From Actinomycetes bacterium (lineage in GTDB: Bacteria; Actinomycetota; Thermoleophilia; RBG-16-64-13), in assembly GCA_024637035.1 (NCBI GenBank), contig JAGXFW010000026.1, positions 1 to 64,000 of the forward strand: DNA of 64,000 nucleotides, given 5' to 3'. Positions 18,484 through 35,238 of the stretch are shown in pieces. Below the pieces are notes generated by a model. It searched no databases. It was given only the letters and a program-made list of their open reading frames with translations, and was not told the DNA's origin. Both the position numbers and the translations under genes were made by a program. Position 1 is the first letter of the stretch; each line of letters opens with the position of its first letter.

Positions 18484-18646
18484 GCCATGATGCCCCGCGA
18501 ACCACGCGTCCACCAGTTCGAACAGCGTGAGACCCGAGGATCCGAGAACGCCCGATGTCGGGCCCGGGTAGTCGCGGCCGCGATCTTGTGGCATCCTCTC
18601 CACGAATGGTTGTCCCTCTTTTTCCTGGAAGGTGTGTAACGGCACT

Positions 18647-20503
18647 ATGGCCGTAGAATTCTTCGACCGGATAATCCGTGGCGGGTGGAGAGCCCGCCTC
18701 ATCGCTGCAGTCGCGGCGCTCGTGGCCGTGTTCTTGCTGGCGATTCTATTGGATGCGGGCATCTCCTACAATCGAGTGCACCCCGGAGTGTCGATCGCTG
18801 GCGCAGGCGCGGGTCGCATGACGCCCGAAGCGGCGGAGGAAACCCTCACCCGCAGAGTCGAGCGCGCGCGGAACAACAGCATCACGTTGGCCGCCGACAC
18901 CGGCCGGGAGTGGTATCTGCTGCCTTCCGACGTCGATGTCCAGGTGGATGCGGCCGGCACGGCGAAGAAGGCCATGGAGGTCACACGCACCGGGAGCTTC
19001 TTCGCGGACCTCCGCACCAAGTTCGGCCTCTACTTCTCGGGCACCGACGTCCCTCTCAGCGCGGCGCTCGACACCGCACTTCTCGACGAGGTTCTCGCCG
19101 AGATCACGGGCACGCTCGACGTGGAGCCGGTGAACGCAGGTCTCAAGATCAACGGCAAGGACATCGAGGTCATCGAGGGCAAGGACGGCCTCGTCGTCGA
19201 TGAAGACGCGCTCCGCGACGACCTCAAGGAGTTGTTGTTCACGCTCGGTACGGGGCGGATCGACATCGTCATGGTGACCGAGACCCCGGCCATCCAGGCA
19301 GCCGACACCAGCGAAGCGGTGGCCAAAGCCCGCACCATGCTCGATGGCAGCGTGGGGCTCTCGTTCGAAGAGGTCGTGTGGGCTCTCTCGCCTGCCGAGA
19401 TCGCTTCCGCTATGGACTTCACCACCGAAGGCGAGGGTGCGCAATCCAAGCTGGTTCCGTACCTGTCACACGAGAAGCTGGCGGAATTCTTCAAGACGGT
19501 GGCTACGGCGGTCGCGCGCGAGCCGAAGAACGCCACATGGGAGACCGACGGCGAGACGGCGACCTTGATACCGGGATCGCCCGGGCTCGCTCTGGACGCC
19601 GAGAAGACGGCCGAGAAACTCACGCTCGCCGCGCTGTCACCCGACGCCCGCGTCGCGACGGTAGAGGCGGTCGAGACGCAACCTTCACGCAGCACCGAGC
19701 AGGCGAAAGAGATGGGTATCGTCTCCAAGCTCGCCGGCTATACCACCGAGTTCGGCGGATCGGACGGCCGTCGAAAGAACGTGCAGCGCGCGGCCGAGTT
19801 GATCAACGGTACGCTGTTGGCTCCGGGCGAGGAGTTCGATTTCGACACGGTCGTGGGGCAACGGACGACCGCGAACGGCTTCACCACGGCTCCGGCGATC
19901 ATCGCCGGCAAGCTCGAGGATTCGCTCGGCGGCGGCATCTGCCAGGTCTCCACGACCCTCTTCAACGCCGTGTTCTTCGCCGGTCTCGACGTGACGGCAC
20001 GCAGCAACCACTCCATATACATCAGTCACTACCCCACGGGCCGTGATGCCACCGTGAGCTGGGGAGGCCCCGCGTTCCGGTTCAAGAACGACACCCCACA
20101 CTGGGTGCTGATCAAGTCCGCGGCGAGCTGGAGCAGTCTCACCTTCGTGGTCTACGGCACCCCGGTGGGCCGCACGGTCACGTACACGACGGGCGACTGG
20201 TACGGCATCACGTCACCTACCGAGAAGCGCGTGAAGACCGCCGAACTGTTCGTGGGCCAGACGAGGGTGGTCGACGACGGTCAATCCGGCCGCAAGATCA
20301 AGGTCACCCGTACCGTGGTCGAGAACGGCACCACCGTCCACTCCGACTCCTTCGTAAGCAGCTACCCGATGAAGCCGAAGATCATCGAGGAGGGCACCAA
20401 GCCCACCACGACGACCACCACAGCGACGACCACGACCACGAAGCCGCCCGCTTCGACAACGACGACGGCCACGTCCACCACAGCGACGACGGCCGCTCCA
20501 TAA
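18647..20503 (+). CDS. VanW family exported protein with Thr-rich tail
   Basis: This protein of 618 residues has one N-terminal membrane anchor (residues 15-45), two repeats of the peptidoglycan-associated region that often precedes VanW domains (about 60-330), and a VanW domain. The latter shows INGTLLAPGEEFDFDTVVG, GGGICQVSTTLFNAVFFAGL and HYPTGRDATVSW. The last 35 residues are mostly Thr in runs, which suggests a wall-spanning or glycosylated tail. The exact role of VanW proteins is unknown; they act in the cell envelope. I chose ATG at 18647, which follows a possible TTGTCC-N19-TGTAAC promoter; GTG at 18632 is the alternative. Confidence 0.85.
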   Translation: MAVEFFDRIIRGGWRARLIAAVAALVAVFLLAILLDAGISYNRVHPGVSIAGAGAGRMTPEAAEETLTRRVERARNNSITLAADTGREWYLLPSDVDVQVDAAGTAKKAMEVTRTGSFFADLRTKFGLYFSGTDVPLSAALDTALLDEVLAEITGTLDVEPVNAGLKINGKDIEVIEGKDGLVVDEDALRDDLKELLFTLGTGRIDIVMVTETPAIQAADTSEAVAKARTMLDGSVGLSFEEVVWALSPAEIASAMDFTTEGEGAQSKLVPYLSHEKLAEFFKTVATAVAREPKNATWETDGETATLIPGSPGLALDAEKTAEKLTLAALSPDARVATVEAVETQPSRSTEQAKEMGIVSKLAGYTTEFGGSDGRRKNVQRAAELINGTLLAPGEEFDFDTVVGQRTTANGFTTAPAIIAGKLEDSLGGGICQVSTTLFNAVFFAGLDVTARSNHSIYISHYPTGRDATVSWGGPAFRFKNDTPHWVLIKSAASWSSLTFVVYGTPVGRTVTYTTGDWYGITSPTEKRVKTAELFVGQTRVVDDGQSGRKIKVTRTVVENGTTVHSDSFVSSYPMKPKIIEEGTKPTTTTTTATTTTTKPPASTTTTATSTTATTAAP

Positions 20504-20529
20504 CCGCTCCATAGGAATCGTCTCTAGAC

Positions 20530-20552
20530 CGACCGGCCCTCGGAGCCGGTCG
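20530..20552 (+). terminator. Possible terminator hairpin after vanW
   Basis: CGACCGG at 20530-20536 pairs perfectly with CCGGTCG at 20546-20552 around a 9-nt loop. There is no run of T after it, so intrinsic termination is uncertain. The rest of 20504-20742 shows no gene. Confidence 0.35.
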
Positions 20553-20742
20553 ATGCGCCCTCAGCTCTCATCCGCGCGCCCCGGGGACGCACCGCTGGCA
20601 ACGCCACTCCAGCAACCCCCGCCTCACCCTTCCGCCGCGTCCGCCGGCCTGACATCCGACCCGCCCGACACTCAAGCGGTCGGCCCGCGCGGCCGATACT
20701 CGAATAGCGACGTCCGACGGACAAACGAGGGTGGACCCCGGA

Positions 20743-21348
20743 ATGATGCTACCTCTCCCAACGGCTGTTCAAGATACGCCGGCCCGGGACATCTCAGAGG
20801 ACGAGATCAAGCAGATCGCTATGCGGGCTGCCCGCAACGACCAGGAAGCGTTCTCGCGTCTCTACCGTCTATATTTCCCGCAGGTGTTCACCTTCATCAA
20901 CTTCCGGGTGAGCTCGCGCGAAGATGCCGAGGACCTTGCGAACGTCGTCTTCGAGAAGGCTCTGCGCGCAATCGAACGCTACCAACCCAAGCCCGCGCAG
21001 TTCTCCACCTGGCTCTACACCATCGCCAAGAACTGCATCATCGACCACTACCGCCGTCGCAGGCTTCCGGTGGACGACGAGGCCGAGGCATCCGCCATCG
21101 CCTCGATGGACCTAAGTGCCGACCCAGTCGCCCGCCTACTCGACGAAGAGCGCAAGCGGACGCTTCGTGAGGCGCTTCACGTGCTCACCGAGGAGCAACG
21201 TGAGGTCGTGGAATGTCGGTTCTTCTTCGAGTTGTCGATCCAAGAGACGGCGCAGGCGATGGGCAAGACCGAAGGCGCCGTCAAAGCGATGCAGTTCCGC
21301 GCACTCGAGAACCTGCATCGGCTGCTCACCGAGGACATCGTCGGCTGA
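20743..21348 (+). CDS. ECF-type RNA polymerase sigma factor
   Basis: This sigma-70 family protein of 201 residues has the compact ECF layout. Region 2 is at about residues 25-95 (DQEAFSRLYRLYFPQVFTFI, then the -10-binding segment FSTWLYTIAKNCIIDHYRR). Region 4 is at about 135-195 (LTEEQREVVECRFF, then the helix-turn-helix SIQETAQAMGKTEGAVKAMQFRALENL). ATG at 20743 is preceded by GAGGGTGG 8 bp upstream; GTG at 20731 is less likely. No anti-sigma gene follows: the next gene is on the other strand. Its targets are unknown, but the envelope-stress block next to it is a reasonable candidate. Confidence 0.88.
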   Translation: MMLPLPTAVQDTPARDISEDEIKQIAMRAARNDQEAFSRLYRLYFPQVFTFINFRVSSREDAEDLANVVFEKALRAIERYQPKPAQFSTWLYTIAKNCIIDHYRRRRLPVDDEAEASAIASMDLSADPVARLLDEERKRTLREALHVLTEEQREVVECRFFFELSIQETAQAMGKTEGAVKAMQFRALENLHRLLTEDIVG

Positions 21349-21420: not shown

Positions 21421-23337
21421 CTAGCCCGCGTCGAAACCTCCGCCCCCGCCCCCGCCCGAGTCACCCCCGCCCGAGTCACCACCGCTCCAATCGCTGGAGC
21501 CTGAGCCGGCGTCCGAACTGTTGAAGCCCGCCCACGCGCCCTGAAGTGAATCACCGCTCCCCGGGCCCGCGAGTGCGGCGTCGGACAGCGCCGTCAGTCC
21601 CGCGAACAGACCGGCCGACACCGCGGCGAGGCCGATGCCTGCCCCCACGCCCGAGATGCCCTCACCCGACCCGAGGCCCGATCCAGTCATCCCAGCGTGG
21701 ATTGAGCCTGCTTCCGGCGCGTTCACGTCGGGCAACGGTACGAACCACGTGGGTGCCTCGACTGCTCGCTGGTCGAATCGCCGCGCCCAAGCCTCGGCGA
21801 CTCCGAAGGCGATCGCGTATGGTAGAAAACGATCGAACAGGTGTTGCGCGGGCTCGAAATCGGCAAGGCGCTCGAGGTCGGCAAGATAGTCGCGGAACGC
21901 TTCCCACCGGCTCTTGGCCTCCTGTCCGAGCGGGGTGCGATACGGCATGAACGGGGAGAAGACCAACACGAAGACGGCCGTCACGCCGCCACCCACCCCG
22001 AGGAAGCCCCAGCCCGGCAGTCCCAACGATCCCATCGCCCCGACGGCCGCCACAGTCGCGACGGCGACGGCCAGCGCGACCCGACGCCAGAAACGTCGCA
22101 CAGCGCCAGGGTCCTTGGAGAAGTAGCCGTCTTCAACCAGGGCGCCGTACACCTCGTCTTCGAACTCCTTGCTCATTCGCCTGAAGCGGCCCGTGATCTC
22201 AGTGGCCCGTATGGTGTCCTTCCGCTTTCGAAGGAAGAGGCCGCGAGCTACCACCCGATCCAGGCCCACAAGGTCGTCGGCCACGTCGATCCGCCGTATC
22301 GTCACTTCGACCGCCGACCCCGTGGGCGCCGTTCCACGTCCACGCACGGCTCGTTCGACGATCTCGAAATGGCCGCGACGGGCGAGATCCACCACCGAGG
22401 CGACCACCTCCTGCCTTCCCACGCGCCCGTCCATCAGCCCCCCGGCGACCGCGGGCGGCAACGCGGCGGGCGGTTCGGTCATGTGGCCGGCGTAGATCTC
22501 CGCACCTCTCGCGCCACCCCTCCTTGTGGCGACCACGAGCAGCAGGAATACAAGGGTGAGCAGGGGCAGCGCCAGCCCGGCCTTCGGAGCCATGAACGCC
22601 GCCACCCGCCTCGGAGTCCATCGGTAGTCCACCAGACCTTTGGGGAACCCGGCCACGACCCAGAGTCGGGTGCGGGGAGGTAGGTCGACGGCCTCCACAG
22701 AGAGCCCTTCCGCCGTGGAGGCAACGGAGACGGGAACGACACCGCCGGTGTCGGCTTCCAGAGACACGTCGCTCGCCGACACCGGTCCCGGCAAGATGAT
22801 CTTGGCGCTCAGATAATCCACGGGCACCGGCGTGACGGCATCGAGCACGTGCCAGCGAAGGCGGTCGCCGTTGTCTCCGAACTCCACGGCTCCGCGGGCG
22901 AGATACGAGAGCTTCCAGCTATCGACAGTGTCCGCAAGCGACAGGTGCAGCCGCACGAGCAGTCTCTCGCCCTCGCGGGAGACCTCGTACTCTCCGGGTC
23001 GGTCGCCCCGATCGAGTTCTACTCCCCGATGCTCGACCCGGATCTCCTCGATGGCCTCCACTCCGGCCACTGGTATAGAGCGGGTCACGAAGCTGAACTC
23101 ACCGTCGAAGCGGATGGAGAAGGTCTCGGAGACGAGCACATCTCCGTCGTCACGCACCTCGAGCAACACGTCGTTCCGCTCGACTCGCCATTCCTTGGCC
23201 CACGCGGCGCCGGGCACGACGAGTAGGGCGGTCATGAGCACCGCCGTCACGGCCAGCATGAGGACGGCCCAGGAATACCCGGGCCCAGCGGACCTCAGGG
23301 GCGTCACACGCGTGAAGACGCGCCTGGGAATACGCAT
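21421..23337 (-). CDS. DUF2207 membrane protein, first paralog
   Basis: This large membrane protein (638 residues from ATG 23337, or 653 from GTG 23382) begins with a hydrophobic signal/anchor ending in PGAAWAKEW. It then has an extracytoplasmic beta-rich DUF2207 domain (WRVERNDVLLEVRDDGDVLV, FDGEFSFVTRSIPV), a transmembrane helix (ALPLLTLVFLLLVVA), a cytoplasmic region with MTEPPAALPPAVAGGLMDGR, a further helix pair and a Gly/Ser/Asp-rich tail. It is a paralog of the protein at 24092-25924, with the same domain order. Function is unknown; such proteins accompany SPFH and zinc-ribbon genes in envelope-stress loci. It is last in the minus-strand block. Confidence 0.85.
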   Translation of the reverse strand: MRIPRRVFTRVTPLRSAGPGYSWAVLMLAVTAVLMTALLVVPGAAWAKEWRVERNDVLLEVRDDGDVLVSETFSIRFDGEFSFVTRSIPVAGVEAIEEIRVEHRGVELDRGDRPGEYEVSREGERLLVRLHLSLADTVDSWKLSYLARGAVEFGDNGDRLRWHVLDAVTPVPVDYLSAKIILPGPVSASDVSLEADTGGVVPVSVASTAEGLSVEAVDLPPRTRLWVVAGFPKGLVDYRWTPRRVAAFMAPKAGLALPLLTLVFLLLVVATRRGGARGAEIYAGHMTEPPAALPPAVAGGLMDGRVGRQEVVASVVDLARRGHFEIVERAVRGRGTAPTGSAVEVTIRRIDVADDLVGLDRVVARGLFLRKRKDTIRATEITGRFRRMSKEFEDEVYGALVEDGYFSKDPGAVRRFWRRVALAVAVATVAAVGAMGSLGLPGWGFLGVGGGVTAVFVLVFSPFMPYRTPLGQEAKSRWEAFRDYLADLERLADFEPAQHLFDRFLPYAIAFGVAEAWARRFDQRAVEAPTWFVPLPDVNAPEAGSIHAGMTGSGLGSGEGISGVGAGIGLAAVSAGLFAGLTALSDAALAGPGSGDSLQGAWAGFNSSDAGSGSSDWSGGDSGGGDSGGGGGGGFDAG

Positions 23338-23365
23338 GGGCGCGGCCGAGCCGAGGATCGGAGAC

Positions 23366-24037
23366 CTAGACCGTCGGGCCACCGGGCGGCTGCGAGCCTG
23401 GAAGCGGCTCCGCCAACGGCGACGGGGCCGCCGTGGGCGGTGACGCCGCGGCCGCGGGCGGCGGCTGGGGCGGTGGTGGTGGTTCGACCGGCGGCGGCGA
23501 TGCCACCGCTGGAGCCTGAGCCACGGCGCCCGAAGCGCCGGGCGCCGGTCCCGACAGGTAGGTCTCGGCGCCGCAGAAGGGGCACTTCACCAGACCCTTG
23601 CCCGCCAGTTCCACGGCGCCGCCGCAGCTGGGGCAGCTCCCCTCTTTGATGTTAGCCGCCTCGGCCGAGACCAACTCGCCCCCGTCCCAATCGACGTAGC
23701 CGGTGAAGAGGCCTTTCCCGATCAGATCGTAGATGTAGGCTCGCACTTCGTCGCGGCTCGAGTCGTTCTCGATGGCCAAGTCCGCGATCCCTACGCGACC
23801 ACGAGTGGTCACCGCGTCGAGCATAGAGCGCTGCTTGTCGGCCTTGGTCTGCTGCTTGATCTCACCGCCCGAACGCAGGAGGAAATACGCACCCACCGCG
23901 AAGAACGGCAGCGAGAAGAGCACGAAACCGAGGGCTATGCCCGTGACCGATTTCCCCGTAGCCAGACCGGCACCCAGCCATACGGCTACGCCCGCGCCTA
24001 CGATCATCAATACGATGCCAATCGTCCGGCTCTGCAT
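23366..24037 (-). CDS. Membrane-anchored zinc-ribbon protein with Pro-rich tail
   Basis: This 223-residue protein has two N-terminal transmembrane helices (residues 5-28 and 33-55). A winged-helix-like segment (ADKQRSMLDAVTTRGRVGIADLA, about 65-115) follows. Then comes one zinc ribbon (CPSCGG and CPFCG, near residues 134-155) and a 70-residue tail of Pro and Ala. It lies between the two DUF2207 genes on the same strand. The architecture suggests a cytoplasmic binding platform at the membrane. No enzymatic motif is visible. The stop codon at 23366 is just upstream of the next DUF2207 start or overlaps it, depending on the start chosen. Confidence 0.78.
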   Translation of the reverse strand: MQSRTIGIVLMIVGAGVAVWLGAGLATGKSVTGIALGFVLFSLPFFAVGAYFLLRSGGEIKQQTKADKQRSMLDAVTTRGRVGIADLAIENDSSRDEVRAYIYDLIGKGLFTGYVDWDGGELVSAEAANIKEGSCPSCGGAVELAGKGLVKCPFCGAETYLSGPAPGASGAVAQAPAVASPPPVEPPPPPQPPPAAAASPPTAAPSPLAEPLPGSQPPGGPTV

Positions 24038-24091
24038 CGCGCCTCCTTGCGCTCGATCCCGTGGTCACGCCGTCTGATCTCGCTTCGCGGC

Positions 24092-25924
24092 CTATCCGGC
24101 CCGGAAACCGCCTCCGCCCCCACCTCCGGAGAAGCCGCCGCCGAACCCGCCGCCGAACCCGCCGCTGCTCGACCCCGAACCCGACGGCGACGAGGTGAGT
24201 ACGCTCGACATGCTGTTCAGACTGCTGAAGAGACTGTCGGAGATGCTGTCGAGGCTCGGAACACCGCCGCCCGGGATGCCCGTGGGGAGGCCCGTGTTGA
24301 CACCGCCCGTGTCGGCCCATACCGGGCCGGGCTGGTTCTGACCGATGACCAACGGTCGATACCAGATGGGCGCTGGCAGTTGCATGTCTTCGAAGCGCCG
24401 CACCCAGGAACGTTCCACCCCGAAAGCGATCGCATACGGCAGGTACTTCTCAAAGGTGTCGCGCGCCGTCTGCATGTCCTGATACCTGCTGAGGTCCTTC
24501 AGGTAGTTGCGGAACGCCTCCCATTTTCGCTGCTCCGCCGCCCCCGCGGAAGTCCTTTGCGGCATGAACCGGGAGAAGCCGAGCACGGTGAACCCGGAGA
24601 TGATGCCGCCCGCGAGTAGCCAGCCGAAGCCCGGCACACCGGCAGTGGCCAGCAACACCGACAGCCCGATCCACGCGACGAGCACCAGGACGCCGATCAC
24701 GCTCCAGCGCGTGCGGGTGCTCTTGGGGTTCCGCGGGAAGTAGCCGAGGGTGGTGACCTCTTCGTAGATCTTCTTGGTGATCGGTTCCACGTTCTGGTAG
24801 AACTCGTTCTTCAGATCGCTCGAGTCGACTTCGTCCTTGCCTTTGTCGAAGACCGCCTTGGCGACTTCGTGCTCGAACCCCTTCAGCTCACCGATAGGCT
24901 TGAGCCGTTTGAAAGTCGTGTTGGTCGTCTTGAAGAGCCAGAAGCCCTCGCTCGAATCGGTCATCTCGAGGTAGCCACGTCTCCCTAGGTCGACGATGGT
25001 GGCAAGTATCTCTTTCACCTCCACCTTCTCGTCGATGAGCGCGCCCGCCACGGCGGGTGGCAGGCCGGACGGGGGTTCCGTCATGAACGAGGCGTACACG
25101 GCGGCCGGATCGTCGCGGCCACGGCGGACCCAGATGAGCAGCATGCCCAGAAAGGTGAATATGGGCAGCATGAAGCCGAACCTGGGGAGCACGTACGCCG
25201 CCACCCTTCGGGCCGTCCACGTGAACTTCACCACGTCCTTGGGGAATCCGGCAACCAGCCAGAACCGGGTGTACGGCGCGAAGTCAGAGCCTTCGTAGAA
25301 CAGCACGCCGGGCTCGGGACTCGTGACCGCATCCGACGTGGCGAATCCGGTATCGATCGCCGTGGTCATCTGCTCCATGGCGATCGCGGCAGGCAGACGC
25401 ACGGTGGCCGATGCGTGGTCGATGGGCACCGGGGTGTCCGCGTCGAACACGTACCAGCGCAGTTCGTCTCCCTCGTCGAAGAAATGGATCGCGCCCTTGG
25501 CGAGATACTTGAAGGTCCAGGTGGCGGAGGTGTCTTGCAGGGCGAAGTTCACCTGGATCACCAGGTCGGAGCCTTCGTAGAACGTGTTGTACGTGCCCGC
25601 GGCATCACCGCGCGGCAACTCCCCGCCATCCTGGAACACCTTGATGTCGTCGATGCCTTCGAGGTTACCCGTGGGGATCACCCGCCCCACGAACGTGAAG
25701 GGGCCTTCGAAGGCGAAGGTGACGGTCTCTTCCACGGCGACGTCGCCCTTCTCCTGCACATCGAGCACCACGTCCATGTTCTCGATGCGCCAATCCTTCG
25801 CTTCGGCAGCCCCCGGGAACCCCAGGAGGACGACCAACGCGAGGGTGACGGCCGTCAGAAAGGCGGCCGCCATGACGACGGCCGAGGCCATCGAACGTAT
25901 CCGCGTCAGCACCACGATGCTCAT
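24092..25924 (-). CDS. DUF2207 membrane protein, second paralog
   Basis: This protein of about 610 residues has the same layout as the paralog at 21421. It has a signal/anchor (LVVLLGFPGAAEAKDW), a DUF2207 ectodomain (WRIENMDVVLDVQEKGDVAVE, FEGPFTFVGRVIPTGN), a transmembrane helix (FGFMLPIFTFLGMLLIWV), the cytoplasmic MTEPPSGLPPAVAGALIDEK motif, two more helices and a C-terminal glycine-rich tail (GGFGGGFGGGFSGGGGGGG). ATG 25924 has a GGGGG sequence close upstream; GTG 25930 is the alternative. It lies 9 bp after the SPFH gene, so coupled expression is likely. Tandem duplication within the block is inferred from the shared order and motifs. Confidence 0.85.
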   Translation of the reverse strand: MSIVVLTRIRSMASAVVMAAAFLTAVTLALVVLLGFPGAAEAKDWRIENMDVVLDVQEKGDVAVEETVTFAFEGPFTFVGRVIPTGNLEGIDDIKVFQDGGELPRGDAAGTYNTFYEGSDLVIQVNFALQDTSATWTFKYLAKGAIHFFDEGDELRWYVFDADTPVPIDHASATVRLPAAIAMEQMTTAIDTGFATSDAVTSPEPGVLFYEGSDFAPYTRFWLVAGFPKDVVKFTWTARRVAAYVLPRFGFMLPIFTFLGMLLIWVRRGRDDPAAVYASFMTEPPSGLPPAVAGALIDEKVEVKEILATIVDLGRRGYLEMTDSSEGFWLFKTTNTTFKRLKPIGELKGFEHEVAKAVFDKGKDEVDSSDLKNEFYQNVEPITKKIYEEVTTLGYFPRNPKSTRTRWSVIGVLVLVAWIGLSVLLATAGVPGFGWLLAGGIISGFTVLGFSRFMPQRTSAGAAEQRKWEAFRNYLKDLSRYQDMQTARDTFEKYLPYAIAFGVERSWVRRFEDMQLPAPIWYRPLVIGQNQPGPVWADTGGVNTGLPTGIPGGGVPSLDSISDSLFSSLNSMSSVLTSSPSGSGSSSGGFGGGFGGGFSGGGGGGGFRAG

Positions 25925-25933
25925 GCGCACCCC

Positions 25934-27043
25934 CTACGGTGTGGGAGTGGGTGTTCCCTCGCCGCCCTCTGTCGTCGCGCCGCCCTCAGGGGCGGCAGCC
26001 GGCGCCGGAGCTCCGATCTGCTGTCCGCAGTTGGCGCAGAACTTCGTGCCCACAGCGAGCTTGGCCTGACACTGCGGACAATCGACCGTCGCCTCGAGGT
26101 CTGTGCCACACTCGGGGCAGAACTTGCTTCCGAAGGCGATGTCTTTCGTACAGCTCGGGCAGCGCATCTTCGGCTGGGCCCCCGACTGCATGGCTTGCTG
26201 CATCATGCCCGGGATCATGAAGCCGAGGCCGGCGCCGACGCCCAACCCCACACCCGAGGCCGCCGCGTCTGCGATGCCGCCACCACCGCCACCTTGGGCG
26301 ATATCACCGATAGCCTGAGCAGCCTTGAACTGGAAGTAACGATCCATGCCGCCGATCGCCTCCATGCCGGAGCGCTCGTCTATGGCCTTGAGCACCGCTT
26401 CCGGCGGGGTGATGGCATTCACCACGAAGTCGACCAGGGCAAGGCCGTACTGGTAGAAGTCGTCTTTCACACGGGCCTTGAGACCCGCGCCGATCTCGTC
26501 GTAGTAGCGGGGCAGGTCGAGCACCGAGTCGAGGCTCTCACCGAGCAGGTCGGACAGGCGCCCCACGATGATGCCGCGCAGGAAGTCTTCGATCTGCCGC
26601 ATCGTGTAGATGGATCGCGTGCCCACCAGCTTCAGCACGAGCAGCTTCGGATCGACCACCTGGATGCTGTAGATACCGTTGGCCCGTAGGCGCACCATCT
26701 TGAACTCGGAGTCGCGGAACAGGACGGGCTCCGTCGTGCCCCACTTCTGATCGGTGTAGACACTCCGATTGACGTAGTACACCTCGGCCCGGAACGGCGT
26801 GTCGCCGAAGAGCGGCGTGGTGATGAGCGCGGTGAGGAACGGGATGTTCTGCGTGGAAAGGGTGTGTCTGCCGACGCCGAACGTATCGAGCGCCTTGCCG
26901 TCTCGGAAGAACACCCCCCACTGGTTCTCGCGTACGATGAGCTGCGACCCCATCTTGAATTCGCCGGACCCCGACTCCGGGATGCGGTGGACGATCTCCT
27001 TGCCCGCTTGATCGACAAACTCGATGATCTCCATCAAGGCCAT
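25934..27043 (-). CDS. SPFH-domain protein with two zinc ribbons (YdjI-like)
   Basis: This 369-residue protein has an SPFH/virion-core-like domain (residues 1-240; IVRENQWGVFFRDGKALDTFG, then RGIIVGRLSDLLGESLDS). A glycine-rich hydrophobic hinge (GVGLGVGAGLGFMIPGMMQQ) follows. Two zinc ribbons are next (CPSC..CPEC and CPQC..CANC, about 288-345), and then a Pro/Thr tail. This matches the YdjI family of Bacillus, which works with YdjG and YdjH to place PspA at stressed membranes. A GAGGTAA sequence precedes the ATG. It follows the coiled-coil gene by only 6 bp, so these two very probably form a functional pair. Confidence 0.88.
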   Translation of the reverse strand: MALMEIIEFVDQAGKEIVHRIPESGSGEFKMGSQLIVRENQWGVFFRDGKALDTFGVGRHTLSTQNIPFLTALITTPLFGDTPFRAEVYYVNRSVYTDQKWGTTEPVLFRDSEFKMVRLRANGIYSIQVVDPKLLVLKLVGTRSIYTMRQIEDFLRGIIVGRLSDLLGESLDSVLDLPRYYDEIGAGLKARVKDDFYQYGLALVDFVVNAITPPEAVLKAIDERSGMEAIGGMDRYFQFKAAQAIGDIAQGGGGGGIADAAASGVGLGVGAGLGFMIPGMMQQAMQSGAQPKMRCPSCTKDIAFGSKFCPECGTDLEATVDCPQCQAKLAVGTKFCANCGQQIGAPAPAAAPEGGATTEGGEGTPTPTP

Positions 27044-27049
27044 ATCGCG

Positions 27050-27712
27050 TTACCTCCCCACGCCCGTGATCAAATGCTCCCGCTCGTTGAAACTCAGGTC
27101 GAGCGCCGTGACCCGTTCATCCAGGATCTCGAGGTCGCTGCGCACCGACGGGCTGTCCGCCGACAGCGTGCCCACCAACTCCTCGAGGTGACGCGCGTAC
27201 TCCTGGCTCTGCACGTCGAACCGGTAGAGCAGGTCGAGCTCATCGTCGCCCACCTTCACCGTATCGAAGATGCCGGCGTAGCCATAGTCGGCGTATAGGT
27301 AGCGGTCTTTGACCGTGCGGAGCTTCCGCCCTATGCGATCGATGCTCGAAAGCAGCTGGAGTTCGCCTCGATCGGTCATCTGCAAAGCGACCGACTCGAG
27401 GCTGCGGCGCGCCGTCTCGAGTCGTTCGACCACGTAGTCACGCTGGAGCTTGTCGGCCTCACGACGGAGTTCCTTCTGCTTGTACCCCTTGTAGCCCGGT
27501 ATGTGCTCGGCCGCCCGTTCGAACCAGTTCTTGCTTTCCGTGATGCGCTGCTCCACCCCGTCGATCGGAGGAGCGTCAAGCACAGGAGCTTCGATCGGAG
27601 GAGCGTCGGTAGGGAGCATCTGCTGCGGCGTGCCACCCTCCGCTGCGGGCTCCCCGCCCTGGCCTTCGAAACCGCCCTCGGTGGCGGCACCGTTCGTGAT
27701 CTCGTCCGTCAC
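27050..27712 (-). CDS. Helical coiled-coil protein of unknown function, partner of the SPFH protein
   Basis: GTG at 27712 with GGAAGGAG just upstream gives 220 residues. The first 55 residues are low-complexity Gly/Glu/Pro with repeated APPIDG/APPIEAP units. The rest is mostly charged helix: IPGYKGYKQKELRREADKLQ, then RLETARRSLESVALQ and a second half with RYLYADYGYAGIFDTVKV. No transmembrane segment, enzyme motif or zinc ribbon is seen. The length and helical nature recall PspA-type peripheral proteins, but I see no clear PspA signature. It is first in the operon that continues into the SPFH gene. A perfect 19-bp tandem repeat lies 54 bp upstream of its start. Confidence 0.75.
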   Translation of the reverse strand: MTDEITNGAATEGGFEGQGGEPAAEGGTPQQMLPTDAPPIEAPVLDAPPIDGVEQRITESKNWFERAAEHIPGYKGYKQKELRREADKLQRDYVVERLETARRSLESVALQMTDRGELQLLSSIDRIGRKLRTVKDRYLYADYGYAGIFDTVKVGDDELDLLYRFDVQSQEYARHLEELVGTLSADSPSVRSDLEILDERVTALDLSFNEREHLITGVGR

Positions 27713-27765
27713 GTCAGTCTCCTTCCCGGGATCGCCACGCCTAGTCGCGGCGAACATCCCCCTCG

Positions 27766-27803
27766 ATTCCTACGTGCGTCAGACATTCCTACGTGCGTCA
27801 GAC
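27766..27803. repeat. Perfect tandem duplication of a 19-bp sequence
   Basis: attcctacgtgcgtcagac occurs at 27766-27784 and, identically, at 27785-27803. It lies in the intergenic gap between the coiled-coil gene (start 27712) and the zinc-ribbon gene (stop 27872), both on the minus strand. It could be a pair of regulator sites or a recent duplication. Confidence 0.9.
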
Positions 27804-27871
27804 TACCCTTCCCAGGCATCCAGCCCCCTACGCGTTGCTCCGGCTGCCTCCTCGCTACTATGGCGGCCGCC

Positions 27872-28645
27872 TCAGGCCACCATCCCATCGAACTCTCGAA
27901 GCAGCAGACGCCACCCCGAGTCGCGCACGTAGCGCGGGTCGAAGGATGCCGGCAGAAAGACCAGCTCTCCTCCCGTGAGGTTGAGGTCGTAGTCGATGGA
28001 CCGAAGTCCCTGCGTTGTTCTTGATTCTAATGCCAGATAGACGAAATGCGCCACCACTTCCGCGTCGTCGCGCCCCACCAGCACAGGCGAGAGCATCCGG
28101 TCGTCGGGATCGTGCGCCCACCCTTCGGCAGTCACACTCGCCCGCTCCGACACCGCAAGCGGTCGTGTCGGGCCTTCGTCCGGCAGGCCGTCGCGGAGTT
28201 CGAGTTGCGGCTGGGCCTGGACCAATCCCACTCCGAGTTGCTGCACGAGGCCCCGCGAAAGCGTGAAAGCGGGAGCGAAGAGGAAGGGGGGATCAGGCGC
28301 CGCGACCCGGCGGATCTGCTCCCAGGCACTTTCGGCGGGTGAGGCCCCTGAGAAGCGCTTCTCGACGACCTCCACGGAAGCAAGAAAGCGCCAGACGGCC
28401 AGGTAGCGAACATCGGGGGGGATCGCCAGATCGGAGGTCACCGCAGAGGTGCGCGGCCTTCCCTCCACGAGCGCTTCGCCCTGGACCTCGAACGTGCGAC
28501 CGCACGACCGGCAGGGGAACACCCGCGCACCCTCCAGCACTTCCAAGGCAAGACCACACGACGAGCAGACGAGGGCCAGCAGGTCAGGCGGAGAATGGCT
28601 CGTGGTACTCGACCTCCCTAATGAGTCTGAAACGCCAATAGACAC
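27872..28645 (-). CDS. Soluble zinc-ribbon protein, third of three related genes
   Basis: This 257-residue protein has an N-terminal zinc ribbon (CSSCGLALEVLEGARVFPCRSC, about residues 27-48) and a mixed domain ending with TGGELVFLPASFDPRY. No transmembrane helix is seen. The N-terminus overlaps the 3' end of the upstream zinc-ribbon gene by 62 bp; the start is GTG at 28645, and no other start codon lies before the ribbon. It resembles its two upstream neighbours in layout, which suggests they arose from one ancestor. Function is unknown. Confidence 0.72.
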   Translation of the reverse strand: MSIGVSDSLGRSSTTSHSPPDLLALVCSSCGLALEVLEGARVFPCRSCGRTFEVQGEALVEGRPRTSAVTSDLAIPPDVRYLAVWRFLASVEVVEKRFSGASPAESAWEQIRRVAAPDPPFLFAPAFTLSRGLVQQLGVGLVQAQPQLELRDGLPDEGPTRPLAVSERASVTAEGWAHDPDDRMLSPVLVGRDDAEVVAHFVYLALESRTTQGLRSIDYDLNLTGGELVFLPASFDPRYVRDSGWRLLLREFDGMVA

Positions 28646-29672
28646 CCGAAGCGGCCGTCAAGACAAGCAGCGCCGCGTAGAGTGCCGGTTCTCTGAACCC
28701 CTCCCAAGACTCCCACGCGGAGACCGCCAGAGCAAGCAGGAGTGCTAGTGCGACGTACGACGCGAGTAGCGCAGCGAGGCGACCTCGGTTGTCGGCGGGA
28801 GCGCGGGCAGAGTGGACCAAGCCGTTGCGTCCGTCCACCGCCATCTCGTACACGCGGTCGCGATAGCGGTAGTGGAGTGACCAGATGGGATAGTAGATGA
28901 GTGCTTCGGACTTCCGTATGAGGAAGAGCTTTGTCTGGCGAGTGACCGTGCCGGTGGCTGGGCGAAGGAACGACTCGTGTGCACGCGCCCGCACCAATTC
29001 CACGTCTCGATCGGCCTCGAGCACCACGGCGTCCCGCTCCAGCTCGCCCACGAGATACGGCAACGTGAGCTCCCGACCGGTCATGAGCGGCCTGCTTATC
29101 CCCAACACCGAGATGTCCGCCGCCTCCTGATACATGCGGCGCTCGCCCAAGAACGCGGCTTCAACGCCCTCTTCTACCAGCCGGCTCTGAACCACGTCTT
29201 GGTCGCCGACGCGCACCACCTCCGCCTTGTTCCGCAGCTTCTTGCCGAACTCCCACCCCACCACGTGCGCCCGGATCTCCCAGATGGGCACGTAGAGCAG
29301 GGTGGCGTCGGTGAAGGCCGACTCGGCTATGTCGGAGGGCGTGTCGGGGTGCTCACGAAGCCAGCGTGACGCCCGCCCGACGGCACTCAACTTCTCGACG
29401 CGTGTCGGGTAGAAGCGGCGCTCGAAGCCCCCCCGGGCCGGGGCCAGGAAGGGCGTGCCGCAATGAGAGCAGCGAAGCATATGGTCGCCGTCTCGAACGG
29501 CGAGCGCGCCTGCGCACCGGGGGCACGGCACCGACCGCAAGGTGGCGGAACGCCGCGGCGACCTATCGGCTGCCAACTCAGACAGCGTGTCCGCGGCAGT
29601 GGGGGGGTCGGCGGCCGCGAACGCTCCACCGTCGGCGCGCACTCGAGCATCGGTGCGGAGCGGCTCAGCCAT
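28584..29672 (-). CDS. Zinc-ribbon membrane protein, YdjG-like
   Basis: This 362-residue protein begins with a disordered stretch, then a zinc ribbon (CPRC..CSHC, about residues 50-72). A long soluble domain with SALIYYPIWSLHYRYRDRVYE-type beta strands follows (that segment is SEALIYYPIW then LHYRYRDRVYEMAVDG), and two transmembrane helices end it (LAALLASYVALALLLALAV and ALYAALLVLTAASGVYW). A zinc ribbon followed by membrane helices is the layout of Bacillus YdjG, a partner of PspA. Its start overlaps the stop of the upstream gene by 8 bp (ATGGCTGA), so they are translationally coupled. Confidence 0.8.
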   Translation of the reverse strand: MAEPLRTDARVRADGGAFAAADPPTAADTLSELAADRSPRRSATLRSVPCPRCAGALAVRDGDHMLRCSHCGTPFLAPARGGFERRFYPTRVEKLSAVGRASRWLREHPDTPSDIAESAFTDATLLYVPIWEIRAHVVGWEFGKKLRNKAEVVRVGDQDVVQSRLVEEGVEAAFLGERRMYQEAADISVLGISRPLMTGRELTLPYLVGELERDAVVLEADRDVELVRARAHESFLRPATGTVTRQTKLFLIRKSEALIYYPIWSLHYRYRDRVYEMAVDGRNGLVHSARAPADNRGRLAALLASYVALALLLALAVSAWESWEGFREPALYAALLVLTAASGVYWRFRLIREVEYHEPFSA

Positions 29673-30438
29673 GGCGAGCCACCGCCCACCGCAACATCGG
29701 GTAGAGGCCCGCGGCCGTCACGACGATCGCCACCACGCGAGCAGCCAAACCCGGCACCAAGACGGCTTCGGCGAAGAGTAGGAGCATGGCGCCGGCGGCC
29801 ACACGACGCTCCCCGAGCACCTCGCGTCGAGCAGGTCGGCGCTCCGTGAGCACTCGACCCGACCCGGCTTCCACCACCGCTGTGTAGCGGTCGCCTCGGT
29901 ACGTGTAGCGCACGGGGTAGTAGGCGCGGCGCTCCACCAGCACGTCGTCGACGTCGGGGTCGGCCGCGGCTCGGCGGAGCCCCTCCTTCAGGAGTTCCTC
30001 GTCGATGGGGATGACCCGGGCAGCGGCATCTTCGGCCGCCGCCGGGGGCTCACCATCGAGTTGGGCGGGCACGCCCCCGAGATCGAGCACCTCGGGCGCA
30101 GGCAAAGGTGCCAGCGGCATCACCACGTCGGCGCCCCTCCGTCGGATCCGCAGGAAGTGCACGTAGTGGAGCCCATCGACCTGTGAGACGGCCTCCTTCT
30201 CCAGGTCGCTGGGCCCCGCCGGAGAAGCGAACCACCCACGCAGGAACCCCGCGGCGGCCTCCGGGGTGACTCGCGGCCTCTCGAACAGTCGATGCACCCG
30301 GATGCCCGCACCCCTGCGCAACGATGAGTGGCAGTGGGTGCATGCGAAGGTATCGACCTGATGCGGCACGGCCAACAGGGCGCCGCACTGAGGGCAGGCC
30401 GTCTCTGAAGTGATCAGCTCACGATCGCGCACGTTCAT
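29665..30438 (-). CDS. Zinc-ribbon membrane protein, paralog of the downstream gene
   Basis: This 257-residue protein has an N-terminal zinc ribbon (CPQCGALLAVPHQVDTFACTHC, residues 15-36). It has a middle domain with RAYYPVRYTYRGDRYTAVVE that matches the strand pattern in the downstream protein, and a C-terminal hydrophobic hairpin (AGAMLLLFAEAVLVPGLAARVVAIVVTAAG). It starts the coupled three-gene zinc-ribbon set. Function is unknown; it probably acts with the SPFH and DUF2207 proteins at the membrane. The stop lies within the first codons of the next gene. Confidence 0.78.
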   Translation of the reverse strand: MNVRDRELITSETACPQCGALLAVPHQVDTFACTHCHSSLRRGAGIRVHRLFERPRVTPEAAAGFLRGWFASPAGPSDLEKEAVSQVDGLHYVHFLRIRRRGADVVMPLAPLPAPEVLDLGGVPAQLDGEPPAAAEDAAARVIPIDEELLKEGLRRAAADPDVDDVLVERRAYYPVRYTYRGDRYTAVVEAGSGRVLTERRPARREVLGERRVAAGAMLLLFAEAVLVPGLAARVVAIVVTAAGLYPMLRWAVARHG

Positions 30439-30478
30439 CCCGGTATGGTATCGGCCGCACGCGCAAAAGACCTGAACG

Positions 30479-31609
30479 TCAGGCGTAACGCAGAAGTCCG
30501 CCTATGCCACCCATCGCCTCGAGTTCCGGCACCTGCTCCGCTACGTCGACGAAAGCGCCCTGGATCACGGCGGTACGCACGGCCTCGCCCACGGCGTCTC
30601 CGACGGGCGCCATCGCGCCGCCGCACACCGGACACGTCTCCGCCGGCACCAGGACCACGTTGCCGCAGCCGGCGCAGCGCCAGCCGGGTGGCCGATAGGC
30701 GCGGTCTACCAGCAAGCTCTGCACCTGGCCGCGCCGCAGGGCGGCGAGAGTGTCATCGAAGCCGGCTACGCCTCTTCCATTGGAGCCGAGACCCTCGCTG
30801 ATGCGGTGGGCGATCCCCTCCATGGCGGATCGGCGAGCGGCCTCCAAGGCGGCGCGAGCCGCCACGAGGAGCTGCGGGATCGAGGCTGCCGCGTCGAGCG
30901 GGATCTCTGCCGCCACCACGTCCGCCGCGCGGGCGCTGAGGGTCTTCCGGAAGTGCGCCACGATGTCGTGCTGGCCCGAGAGGACGATGCGGCCGGCGCC
31001 CGTCTCGTCGAGGGTGCGGTCGACAGCAGCCGCCACATCTTTGAAATGCAGGTCGACAAGCGCCTCCTGGCGCGCTGCCGCATAGTATTCCTTGACGGGC
31101 ACGTCGCCGGTCTCCCGGTCGGTGGACTTGAGATACGGCCCGCTGTGCCCTTCCACTCCGACGAGTCGCCACTCGTCGATGCTGTACACCGTGGATTCGT
31201 CGCGGCTCACGCGCACGAACACGAACGGCTCGAGCAGTGACAACGCATGTATCAGCGGCCGTACGTACGGGGTGGACTCCACCACGAGCCGGTTCTGGAG
31301 ACGGAACGGTAGCTCGAAGCGCTCGAAGCTCCCGCTCTCGGCGTCGGCGAAGACCGCGAGGCCCTCGGTGCGGGGACCGACTTCGTATCGGAGGACCTCG
31401 CCGATGTGGTCGAGATCTTCCTGCAGCCGGCGACGAGGCTCCTTCTCCAACGACAACTCCCCGAACACCCGGCCCGATTCGCTGTTGAGGAAGGTCGGCG
31501 CTGTTTGACGCCAGTCGTCGAGCCGGCTGGTCGAGATGAAAGCTGAGACCAAGACTCCGTCAGCGCTGTGGACCGCTGCTAGGCTCTTGAGACTGTTCTG
31601 GTCGATCAT
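30479..31609 (-). CDS. Bacterial eRF1-like protein (baeRF family 10 type) with zinc ribbon
   Basis: ATG at 31609 (GGGAG upstream) gives 376 residues. The N-terminal half (VLVSAFISTSRLDDWRQ, then LEKEPRRRLQEDLDHIGEVL and GLAVFADAESGSFERFELP) and the middle (LEPFVFVRVSRDESTVYSID) match the Vms1/baeRF proteins, relatives of archaeal/eukaryotic release factor 1. The catalytic GGQ loop region is replaced by a degenerate LSGQHDIVAHFRKTL, so peptidyl-tRNA hydrolysis by the usual mechanism is doubtful. A C-terminal zinc ribbon (CAGC..CPVCGG, about residues 315-340) links it to its neighbours. Possible roles are ribosome rescue or binding of stalled chains; this is inference. Confidence 0.78.
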   Translation of the reverse strand: MIDQNSLKSLAAVHSADGVLVSAFISTSRLDDWRQTAPTFLNSESGRVFGELSLEKEPRRRLQEDLDHIGEVLRYEVGPRTEGLAVFADAESGSFERFELPFRLQNRLVVESTPYVRPLIHALSLLEPFVFVRVSRDESTVYSIDEWRLVGVEGHSGPYLKSTDRETGDVPVKEYYAAARQEALVDLHFKDVAAAVDRTLDETGAGRIVLSGQHDIVAHFRKTLSARAADVVAAEIPLDAAASIPQLLVAARAALEAARRSAMEGIAHRISEGLGSNGRGVAGFDDTLAALRRGQVQSLLVDRAYRPPGWRCAGCGNVVLVPAETCPVCGGAMAPVGDAVGEAVRTAVIQGAFVDVAEQVPELEAMGGIGGLLRYA

Positions 31610-31704
31610 GTCGACTCCCTGGAGGTCGGGATCCCGCGCCCCCCGATGCGGCAAGGGGCGCCCATGCACTCTCGCGGGGGCACAACGCCCCACTCAAGTG
31701 CCTC

Positions 31705-32013
31705 CTAGGGGGTCTCCTCGGCCTCGACGCCTTCCGGGGGCGAAGCCTCGGCTTCATCGGCAGACGAGGCCTCGACTCCATCGGGCGCCGAAGCCGATTG
31801 CTCGGCTTTGTCACCCATCGATTGGGCCAGCCGGAATTGCTCGTCTCTGTCGCGGAACCGGTCGAGCAACGCAGACTTGCCCCGATCGTGCACGGCGTCC
31901 GCCACGTTGATCGTGCCGCCGTCGGAGAGTGCAGCGGTCATCTTCTGGGTGGGCGTCGAGGGACGCTCCTGATCAGACGACCGTAGGTTTCGCTCGACCT
32001 TCTTGTCCGCCAT
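31705..32013 (-). CDS. Small acidic hydrophilic protein of unknown function
   Basis: ATG at 32013 has an excellent Shine-Dalgarno (AAGGAGG, 5 bp away) and gives 102 residues. The protein is hydrophilic, has no membrane segment and ends in a 35-residue acidic tail rich in Glu, Ala, Ser and Pro. The middle (VADAVHDRGKSALLDRFRDR) is probably helical. It is not the ubiquitin-like Pup, because it lacks the C-terminal Gly-Gly-Gln/Glu. It lies 95 bp upstream of the baeRF gene on the same strand and may be cotranscribed with it. Confidence 0.65.
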   Translation of the reverse strand: MADKKVERNLRSSDQERPSTPTQKMTAALSDGGTINVADAVHDRGKSALLDRFRDRDEQFRLAQSMGDKAEQSASAPDGVEASSADEAEASPPEGVEAEETP

Positions 32014-33885: not shown

Positions 33886-33945
33886 AACAAGCCGCCCACG
33901 ACTTCCGTAGTGCCTAGTGAGTACCACCAAGGAGGAAGGATAGCG

Positions 33946-34341
33946 ATGGACGAGACCCAAGACACGAGCACCCCGAACCCGCCCGCAGAGCCGTGGACCG
34001 ACCCGACCGCCGCCCAGGCACCCGCGCCCGTGGCCGCGGTACCACAGGCCACCCCGCAGCCTCAACTGACGCCGCCCGCCCAACAGCCGCCCGCTCAGGC
34101 GCCGCCCTACCAATCGGCGCCGCCTCAGCAACCCCCGCCGCAAGATCCCCGGCCGAAGGCGCCCGCGCCGCCCGATCAGGCTCCGCCGCCTCGGCCTGAG
34201 CGCGACAAGAACCGGCGTACCGTGGGCATCGTGCTGATCGCGATAGGCGCGGTGTTCCTCGTGAACCAGTTCATCCAGTGGGAGATCTTCTGGCCGGTGT
34301 TGCTCATCGGGCTCGGCGTCTTCTTCCTGCTCAGGAGGTGA
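33946..34341 (+). CDS. Pro-rich protein with LiaI/LiaF-type membrane hairpin
   Basis: ATG at 33946 follows a strong AAGGAGGAAGG ribosome-binding site and gives 131 residues. The first 90 residues are Pro/Gln/Ala-rich and probably disordered. The last 35 (VGIVLIAIGAVFLVNQFIQW, then FWPVLLIGLGVFFLLRR) form the two-helix hairpin seen in LiaI/LiaF-type and DUF5668 proteins. It precedes a LiaF-like gene by 6 bp, so the two proteins probably form a complex in the membrane. LiaI acts as an anchor for PspA-like proteins in other bacteria. Confidence 0.8.
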   Translation: MDETQDTSTPNPPAEPWTDPTAAQAPAPVAAVPQATPQPQLTPPAQQPPAQAPPYQSAPPQQPPPQDPRPKAPAPPDQAPPPRPERDKNRRTVGIVLIAIGAVFLVNQFIQWEIFWPVLLIGLGVFFLLRR

Positions 34342-34347
34342 CAAGAC

Positions 34348-35238
34348 ATGAAGCCCGGTAGATTGGTCCCTGGAGCCATACTGGTGCTCCTGGGCGGGGT
34401 GTTCCTCGCCGCCAACCTGGGCCTGCTGGAATGGAACGTCGTGGCGTCACTCTGGCAGCTCTGGCCGTTGGTGTTCATCCTGATCGGCATCCAACTCCTG
34501 CTCGGCGAACAGAGGCGCTGGCTGGCGACACTTCTCGTGCTGCTCCTGCTCGCGGGGGGCGCCGCGCTGGTGGTGTCCGGCCGCACGTTGATCCCCGGCG
34601 TCGGGGCGGCGTCGCGAACCACCGTCGCAATAGAGAGTCCGTCCGTGGGGGACGTGGAGAAAGCCGTCGCACACCTCGATATCGAGGCAGCCCGCCTGGT
34701 CGTGGGCTCGCAGTCGGGCCCCCTCTTGGCGGCCGGCACCTACGAGACGCGCCACACTCCTGAGGTGACGCACGAGGTCGCCGGCGACACGTACACACTC
34801 GACGTGCGTTCGGAGGCCAAGTGGCGCCTGCCGTTTGGAAAGATCAGCAGTGACAAGGTCACGCTCGAGCTGGTGCGAGGCGTCCCATGGACGATCGCGG
34901 CGAACATCGCCGCCACCGACGCCAACCTCGACTTGAGCGACCTCACGCTTGAGGGCCTGACCCTGAACGCCGACGCGGCCTCATTGGACCTGAGGGTGGG
35001 CCCCGACGTCGTCGACGGGGCCGAAGTTCGCGTCGAATGCAACGCCGCCTCCGTACGGCTGCGGCTGCCTCGTGACCTCGACATCACGTTGAGCACCTCG
35101 AGCGACCTCTCGTCATTGGACGTCGACTCGTCGTTCGATAGGGTCGATGGCGGCTCGTTCCATCACGATGGCGGAAGAGACAGACTGGACGTGTCTATCG
35201 ACGCCAACGTGAGTTCGGTGTCGATCGACCTCTACTGA
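34348..35238 (+). CDS. LiaF-like protein with membrane hairpins and toastrack domain
   Basis: This 296-residue protein has a LiaI/LiaF-type N-terminal membrane hairpin (LVPGAILVLLGGVFLAANLGL, then LWPLVFILIGIQLLLG), one more helix (ATLLVLLLLAGGAALVV) and a C-terminal toastrack beta-repeat domain (residues 110-296; repeating strands such as NLDLSDLTLEGLTLNADAAS and SLDVDSSFDRVDGGSF). LiaF proteins inhibit LiaRS-type envelope-stress signalling in Firmicutes. No LiaRS-type two-component genes are nearby. It is second in a two-gene operon that ends at a strong hairpin shared with the converging operon. Confidence 0.82.
   Translation: MKPGRLVPGAILVLLGGVFLAANLGLLEWNVVASLWQLWPLVFILIGIQLLLGEQRRWLATLLVLLLLAGGAALVVSGRTLIPGVGAASRTTVAIESPSVGDVEKAVAHLDIEAARLVVGSQSGPLLAAGTYETRHTPEVTHEVAGDTYTLDVRSEAKWRLPFGKISSDKVTLELVRGVPWTIAANIAATDANLDLSDLTLEGLTLNADAASLDLRVGPDVVDGAEVRVECNAASVRLRLPRDLDITLSTSSDLSSLDVDSSFDRVDGGSFHHDGGRDRLDVSIDANVSSVSIDLY

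Follow-up and report, generated by a model that had tools for sequence, protein, structure and literature searches.

Organization of the gene block

Ten consecutive genes occupy the minus strand between positions 21421 and 32013 of the window, the 64,000-nucleotide stretch of DNA analysed here, which derives from a genome assembly of 3.57 Mb. This run of genes had been reported by a first-pass annotation made from the sequence, and a check of the open reading frame coordinates confirmed it. Read along the minus strand from 32013 down to 21421, the order is g10, g09, g08, g07, g06, g05, g04, g03, g02 and g01. The genes are tightly spaced: g08 and g07 overlap by 8 bp, g02 and g01 overlap by 17 bp, and a gap of 3 bp separates the SPFH gene g04 from the adjoining DUF2207 gene. 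A scan for promoters and terminators returned nothing above the level of shuffled sequences.

The block begins with g10 (31705..32013), a small protein with the conserved N-terminus MADKKVER in alignments. It had been annotated as acidic, and the protein is indeed present, although its acidity is mild (22 Asp and Glu residues against 13 Lys and Arg residues). It adjoins g09 (30479..31609), a zinc-ribbon protein of baeRF family 10 that is discussed below as a putative Balon-like factor. The next two genes encode paralogs, namely g08 (29665..30438), comprised of a zinc ribbon and a C-terminal transmembrane (TM) segment, and g07 (28584..29672), in which the alignment and an AF2 model reveal a zinc ribbon, a long-stranded β-domain and C-terminal TM helices. 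The zinc-ribbon protein g06 (27872..28645) is probably soluble, judging from Pfam, its cysteine pairs and a hydropathy profile with only a weak segment, located across the zinc ribbon itself. It is followed by g05 (27050..27757; conserved part about 27050-27580), the helical-bundle partner of g04 (25934..27043), which is a YdjI-type SPFH protein (Pfam Band_7_1) bearing two C-terminal zinc ribbons. Two DUF2207 membrane proteins, the conserved copy g03 (24092..25930) and the second copy g01 at the end of the block (21421..23382), each match both DUF2207 and DUF2207_C over cut-off. Between them, g02 (23366..24037) presents two TM helices, one zinc ribbon and a middle region labelled winged-helix-like by eye rather than from a family match.

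The assignments of two DUF2207 proteins, an SPFH protein and a baeRF protein made in the first-pass annotation are thus borne out by Pfam. Its count of seven zinc ribbons in six proteins agrees with the cysteine pairs, two ribbons belonging to the SPFH protein and one each to g02, g06, g07, g08 and g09, and its proposal that at least two of the zinc-ribbon proteins reside in the membrane is in keeping with TM helices in g02, g07 and g08. No report of DUF2207, SPFH and zinc-ribbon proteins occurring together was found in the literature searched.

Two plus-strand features lie on either side of the block. A VanW/peptidoglycan-binding protein and an ECF-like sigma factor (18632-21348) are convergent with it, and are found near it in many relatives. 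About 2 kb beyond the other end are two LiaI/LiaF-TM proteins related to the phage-shock (PSP) response (33910-35238), with relatives nearby in four family genomes (G003, G005, G010 and G014).

Conservation within the actinobacterial family

Orthologs of the SPFH protein were found in 16 other genomes of the actinobacterial family, and the readable block genes stand in the same order in all 16 same-family loci; rather than being scattered in related genomes, the genes stay together. Genomes sampled from other families of the class yielded zinc-ribbon matches and no SPFH orthologs. An automated count placed SPFH downstream of g05 in 14 of 15 family loci, and the remaining locus (L072) has it too, with open frames that overlap beyond the cut-off. 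The spacing between the two genes is 2-12 bp in family loci, with overlaps elsewhere, as measured from automatically chosen start codons.

Other members are less constant. The g03 DUF2207 protein is present in 14/16 family loci, the genus of G010 and G014 having neither DUF2207 nor g02 beside SPFH, and g08 is missing from some relatives. The g01 gene has no adjoining ortholog in G001 or in the other relatives searched, a second DUF2207 protein being confined to this genome. The description of the block as enlarged by paralogs therefore holds for g07 and g08 (hhalign E 2.3e-15), and fails for g01, a single-genome duplicate. Duplicated DUF2207 genes are likewise seen beside g05-SPFH in some Chloroflexota (L118, L120, L131 and L132).

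The flanking PolX, VanW and sigma genes are also kept near the block in many family loci. Because these neighbours are also retained, gene order within the family does not by itself prove that the block constitutes one system, and is weak evidence for the inclusion of g09 and g10.

The g05-SPFH pair beyond the family

The g05 protein belongs to no Pfam family. A profile search of GTDB contigs found 220 stretches encoding relatives, the best 80 of which were fetched for locus analysis; these belong to Actinomycetota, Chloroflexota, Bacillota, Armatimonadota, WOR-3, Planctomycetota, Vulcanimicrobiota, Coatesbacteria and archaea. Among these best 80 of 220, an SPFH gene lies directly downstream of g05 on the same strand in 66/66 readable non-family loci, with a gap between open frames of median 21 bp and at most 905 bp, and no other neighbouring family approaches this frequency. 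Where at least 3 kb was available on both sides (34 non-family loci), g02 was found in 13, DUF2207 in nine, g06-08-like genes in six and baeRF in none. Of 296 genomes of the phylum, the seven that encode g05 are also the seven that encode this SPFH subfamily, with a gap in score in that search (E 1e-183 to 4.5e-69). A tree of g05 sequences only places the actinobacterial, archaeal and Chloroflexota groups in separate clades, although individual sequences have long branches.

Further elements of the block accompany the pair in distant lineages. In Chloroflexota, g02 orthologs and a g03-type DUF2207 protein are encoded beside g05-SPFH, and archaeal loci carry zinc-ribbon relatives of g07. Six archaeal loci (L090, L094, L101, L106, L111 and L135) have two adjoining g07-related zinc-ribbon proteins, with a small membrane protein between them in several. 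The nearest non-family match to the set in the window is on a contig labelled Clostridia (L096:9980-14194), where genes resembling g08, g07 and g06, in that order, come after g05-SPFH.

The closest named family is NCBIfam LIMLP_15305, matched by 79/81 members of the g05 family (best E 2.4e-19), although g05 of the window scores 21.7 bits, far under the cut-off of 210; the term LIMLP_15305 does not appear among the matches listed in the literature search. The AF2 model of g05 is a helical bundle (pLDDT 83) for which Foldseek returned no match under E 0.001, CdvB appearing at E 0.39 (TM 0.29) and the remaining rows being generic helical bundles. Homology of g05 to PspA was considered and rejected, as hhalign of the g05 alignment against the PspA of this genome gave a probability of 0.2% (E 0.26).

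Comparison with the Bacillus YdjGHI system

In Bacillus, YdjI is required for bringing PspA to the membrane, where YdjG and YdjH serve as anchors (PMC8581546). The block resembles the pspA-ydjGHI locus of Bacillus subtilis in encoding a YdjI-type SPFH protein with a C-terminal zinc ribbon alongside membrane zinc-ribbon proteins, but differs in the presence of DUF2207 and in having neither pspA nor the TPM protein (YdjH): Pfam detects no PspA or TPM among the ten block proteins. The genome encodes a single PspA, on another contig (C3), where its only TPM gene lies directly upstream, next to NADH dehydrogenase genes (23452-26367 of contig C3 in genome G000; L052:9453-12368). Thus, the original description of the block as one without PspA was correct.

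The two systems also differ in that the constant SPFH partner here is g05, and in that the block is kept in relatives devoid of any PspA. A PspA gene scores over cut-off in seven of 17 block-bearing family genomes; of the 14 with a completeness of 90% or more, seven have it and seven lack it. No PspA or TPM gene was found in the 83 g05 loci analysed. Eight loci were sampled for the remaining YdjI-type SPFH genes of this phylum; none had PspA nearby in a single-sequence search, and some had a weak g07-like neighbour. In L205, L206 and L208, another YdjI-type SPFH subfamily adjoins such a protein without g05.

Likeness to YdjG and YdjI was drawn from domain content and the published description, which for YdjG comprises two zinc ribbons, a YpeB-related domain and a TM segment, compared to one ribbon, a β-domain and TM helices in g07. 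In the g07 model (pLDDT 85), the zinc ribbon is joined by a long-stranded β-domain and by helices at the C-terminus; a fold search found no match under E 0.001, the rows being mostly β-rich chance matches, and PDB and Pfam profile searches matched essentially the zinc ribbon alone. The comparison with the YpeB C-terminal domain is a weak fold match (Z 6.7), no stronger than those obtained with models that match nothing clearly, and is consistent with the YpeB-related part described for YdjG. Apart from its paralogy with g08, g07 shares only the zinc-ribbon stretch with g06. The YdjG-like pairing of the first-pass annotation accordingly comes down to this chance-range match and the published description, and its equation of the set with Bacillus YdjGHI does not survive, since the YdjH-type TPM protein lies outside the block and the invariant partner of SPFH is g05 rather than PspA. 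With PspA encoded elsewhere and half of the near-complete relatives keeping the block without PspA, the locus is not simply an enlarged YdjGHI set.

The baeRF protein g09 and its neighbour g10

The g09 protein scores 57.0 bits against Pfam baeRF_family10 (gathering cut-off 27.1), and its profile matches the Balon structure of MSMEG_1130 (E 1.4e-7). In the window it bears neither GGQ nor NIKS; one relative has a GGQ string within the zinc ribbon. It resembles Balon, MSMEG_1130 and Rv2629 in these profile matches and absent motifs, but lies far under the NCBIfam equivalog cut-offs, with 55.7, 55.6 and 46.9 bits for the MSMEG_1130, Rv2629 and AOC03_06830 families against 480, 320 and 330, and its neighbours are SPFH and DUF2207 genes rather than RaiA or other listed stress genes. 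Balon homologues inhibit translation and are found in stress operons (PMC10901736), and the profile matches make g09 a Balon-like candidate ribosome-hibernation factor. As family 10 may retain a catalytic glutamine (Burroughs and Aravind), g09 could also have a hydrolytic role.

The zinc ribbon of g09 was considered as part of the zinc-ribbon expansion of the block, a reading that was discarded. The g09 profile also matches archaeal aRF1 over the C-terminal region, where Burroughs and Aravind describe a zinc ribbon in aeRF1, and the ribbon is therefore more likely to be ancestral.

Every one of the 17 block-bearing family genomes encodes a g09 ortholog. It is adjacent to the rest of the block on the same strand in 12, with inserts of 3.5 kb in G001 and about 1 kb in G004; in four others the contig breaks off on the side where it would be expected, and in one, G014, the genes are apart, g10-g09 lying between PolX and the sigma gene and the rest of the block on another contig. 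In family genomes, g10 stands beside baeRF even where baeRF is separated from the other block genes. Six baeRF loci fetched from outside the family contain none of the other block genes. The neighbourhood survey proposed with the first-pass annotation thus found wide co-occurrence of g05 and SPFH, but linkage to baeRF only within the actinobacterial family; the joining of the set to an eRF1-like factor stands inside that family, G014 excepted, and not beyond it.

A possible SPFH-based membrane-stress scaffold

The reading tentatively favoured here, with confidence a little short of even, is that the block encodes a PspA-independent SPFH membrane-stress scaffold with a core of g05, SPFH, g02, DUF2207 and the zinc-ribbon/TM proteins g07 and g08, beside which g09 and g10 are encoded in this family. 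The SPFH protein would oligomerise on the inner face of the membrane together with the helical-bundle g05 as its obligate partner, filling the place that PspA has in Bacillus, and the assembly would be anchored by the zinc-ribbon/TM proteins and DUF2207, whose outward-facing domain may sense envelope damage. In the actinobacterial family, the Balon-like g09 could, with g10, silence ribosomes under envelope stress, a coupling hypothesized from the gene order of this one family. The membrane-stress role, already proposed by the first-pass annotation, is retained as the best inference because of the function of YdjI (PMC8581546), the nearby Lia-type genes and the phenotype of a Streptococcus mutans DUF2207 mutant, which is sensitive to acid and peroxide; susceptibility of this mutant to cell-envelope antimicrobials is unchanged (PMC10457818).

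Two other readings of the SPFH module compete with this one. The zinc-ribboned, YdjI-type SPFH protein, the weak resemblance of g07 to the YpeB-like part reported for YdjG, and the side-by-side PspA and TPM genes on another contig would all suit a split YdjGHI-PspA system, in which the module is a membrane platform recruiting the genome's own PspA in trans. This is unlikely given the seven of 14 near-complete block-bearing relatives without PspA, the 83 g05 loci with none nearby, and a constant partner without sequence similarity to the PspA of the genome. Only slightly more plausible is that SPFH, g05 and the zinc-ribbon proteins assemble for the quality control or sorting of membrane proteins, much as HflKC-FtsH or the ESCRT-linked SPFH loci of archaea, rather than as a damage-response scaffold. 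SPFH proteins are described as forming domed assemblies tied to protein quality control, the g05-SPFH pair is present in archaea, and archaeal SPFH proteins with a coiled coil and zinc ribbon, like those of the block, occur in an ESCRT/adaptin context (PMC10936438). However, the block contains no ESCRT or adaptin genes, no protease or ATPase is found among its ten genes by Pfam, and none recurs beside g05 loci except generic ABC ATPases.

The place of g10-g09 is a separate matter, and it is quite conceivable that they form an independent ribosome-hibernation unit, lying beside the SPFH module merely by inherited gene order. The separation in G014, the insert in G001, the similar retention of flanking genes and the absence of baeRF near g05-SPFH outside the family all favour independence, which is countered by same-strand adjacency in 12/17 block genomes, the expected-side contig breaks in four more, and the agreement of baeRF and SPFH presence patterns within the family. 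A more far-reaching version of the favoured scaffold, in which g05-SPFH is an ancient bacterial and archaeal membrane-repair pair, g05 does the work of PspA/ESCRT-III, and family-specific wiring of a Balon-type factor lets damage directly trigger ribosome hibernation, seems improbable.

SPFH proteins are widespread and their partners mostly unknown, and g05, a protein without a Pfam entry, is a concrete partner candidate in both bacteria and archaea. The relatives without PspA indicate that this type of SPFH protein exists not only for positioning PspA. Should the link to baeRF be functional, envelope stress and ribosome hibernation would be joined in a single locus.
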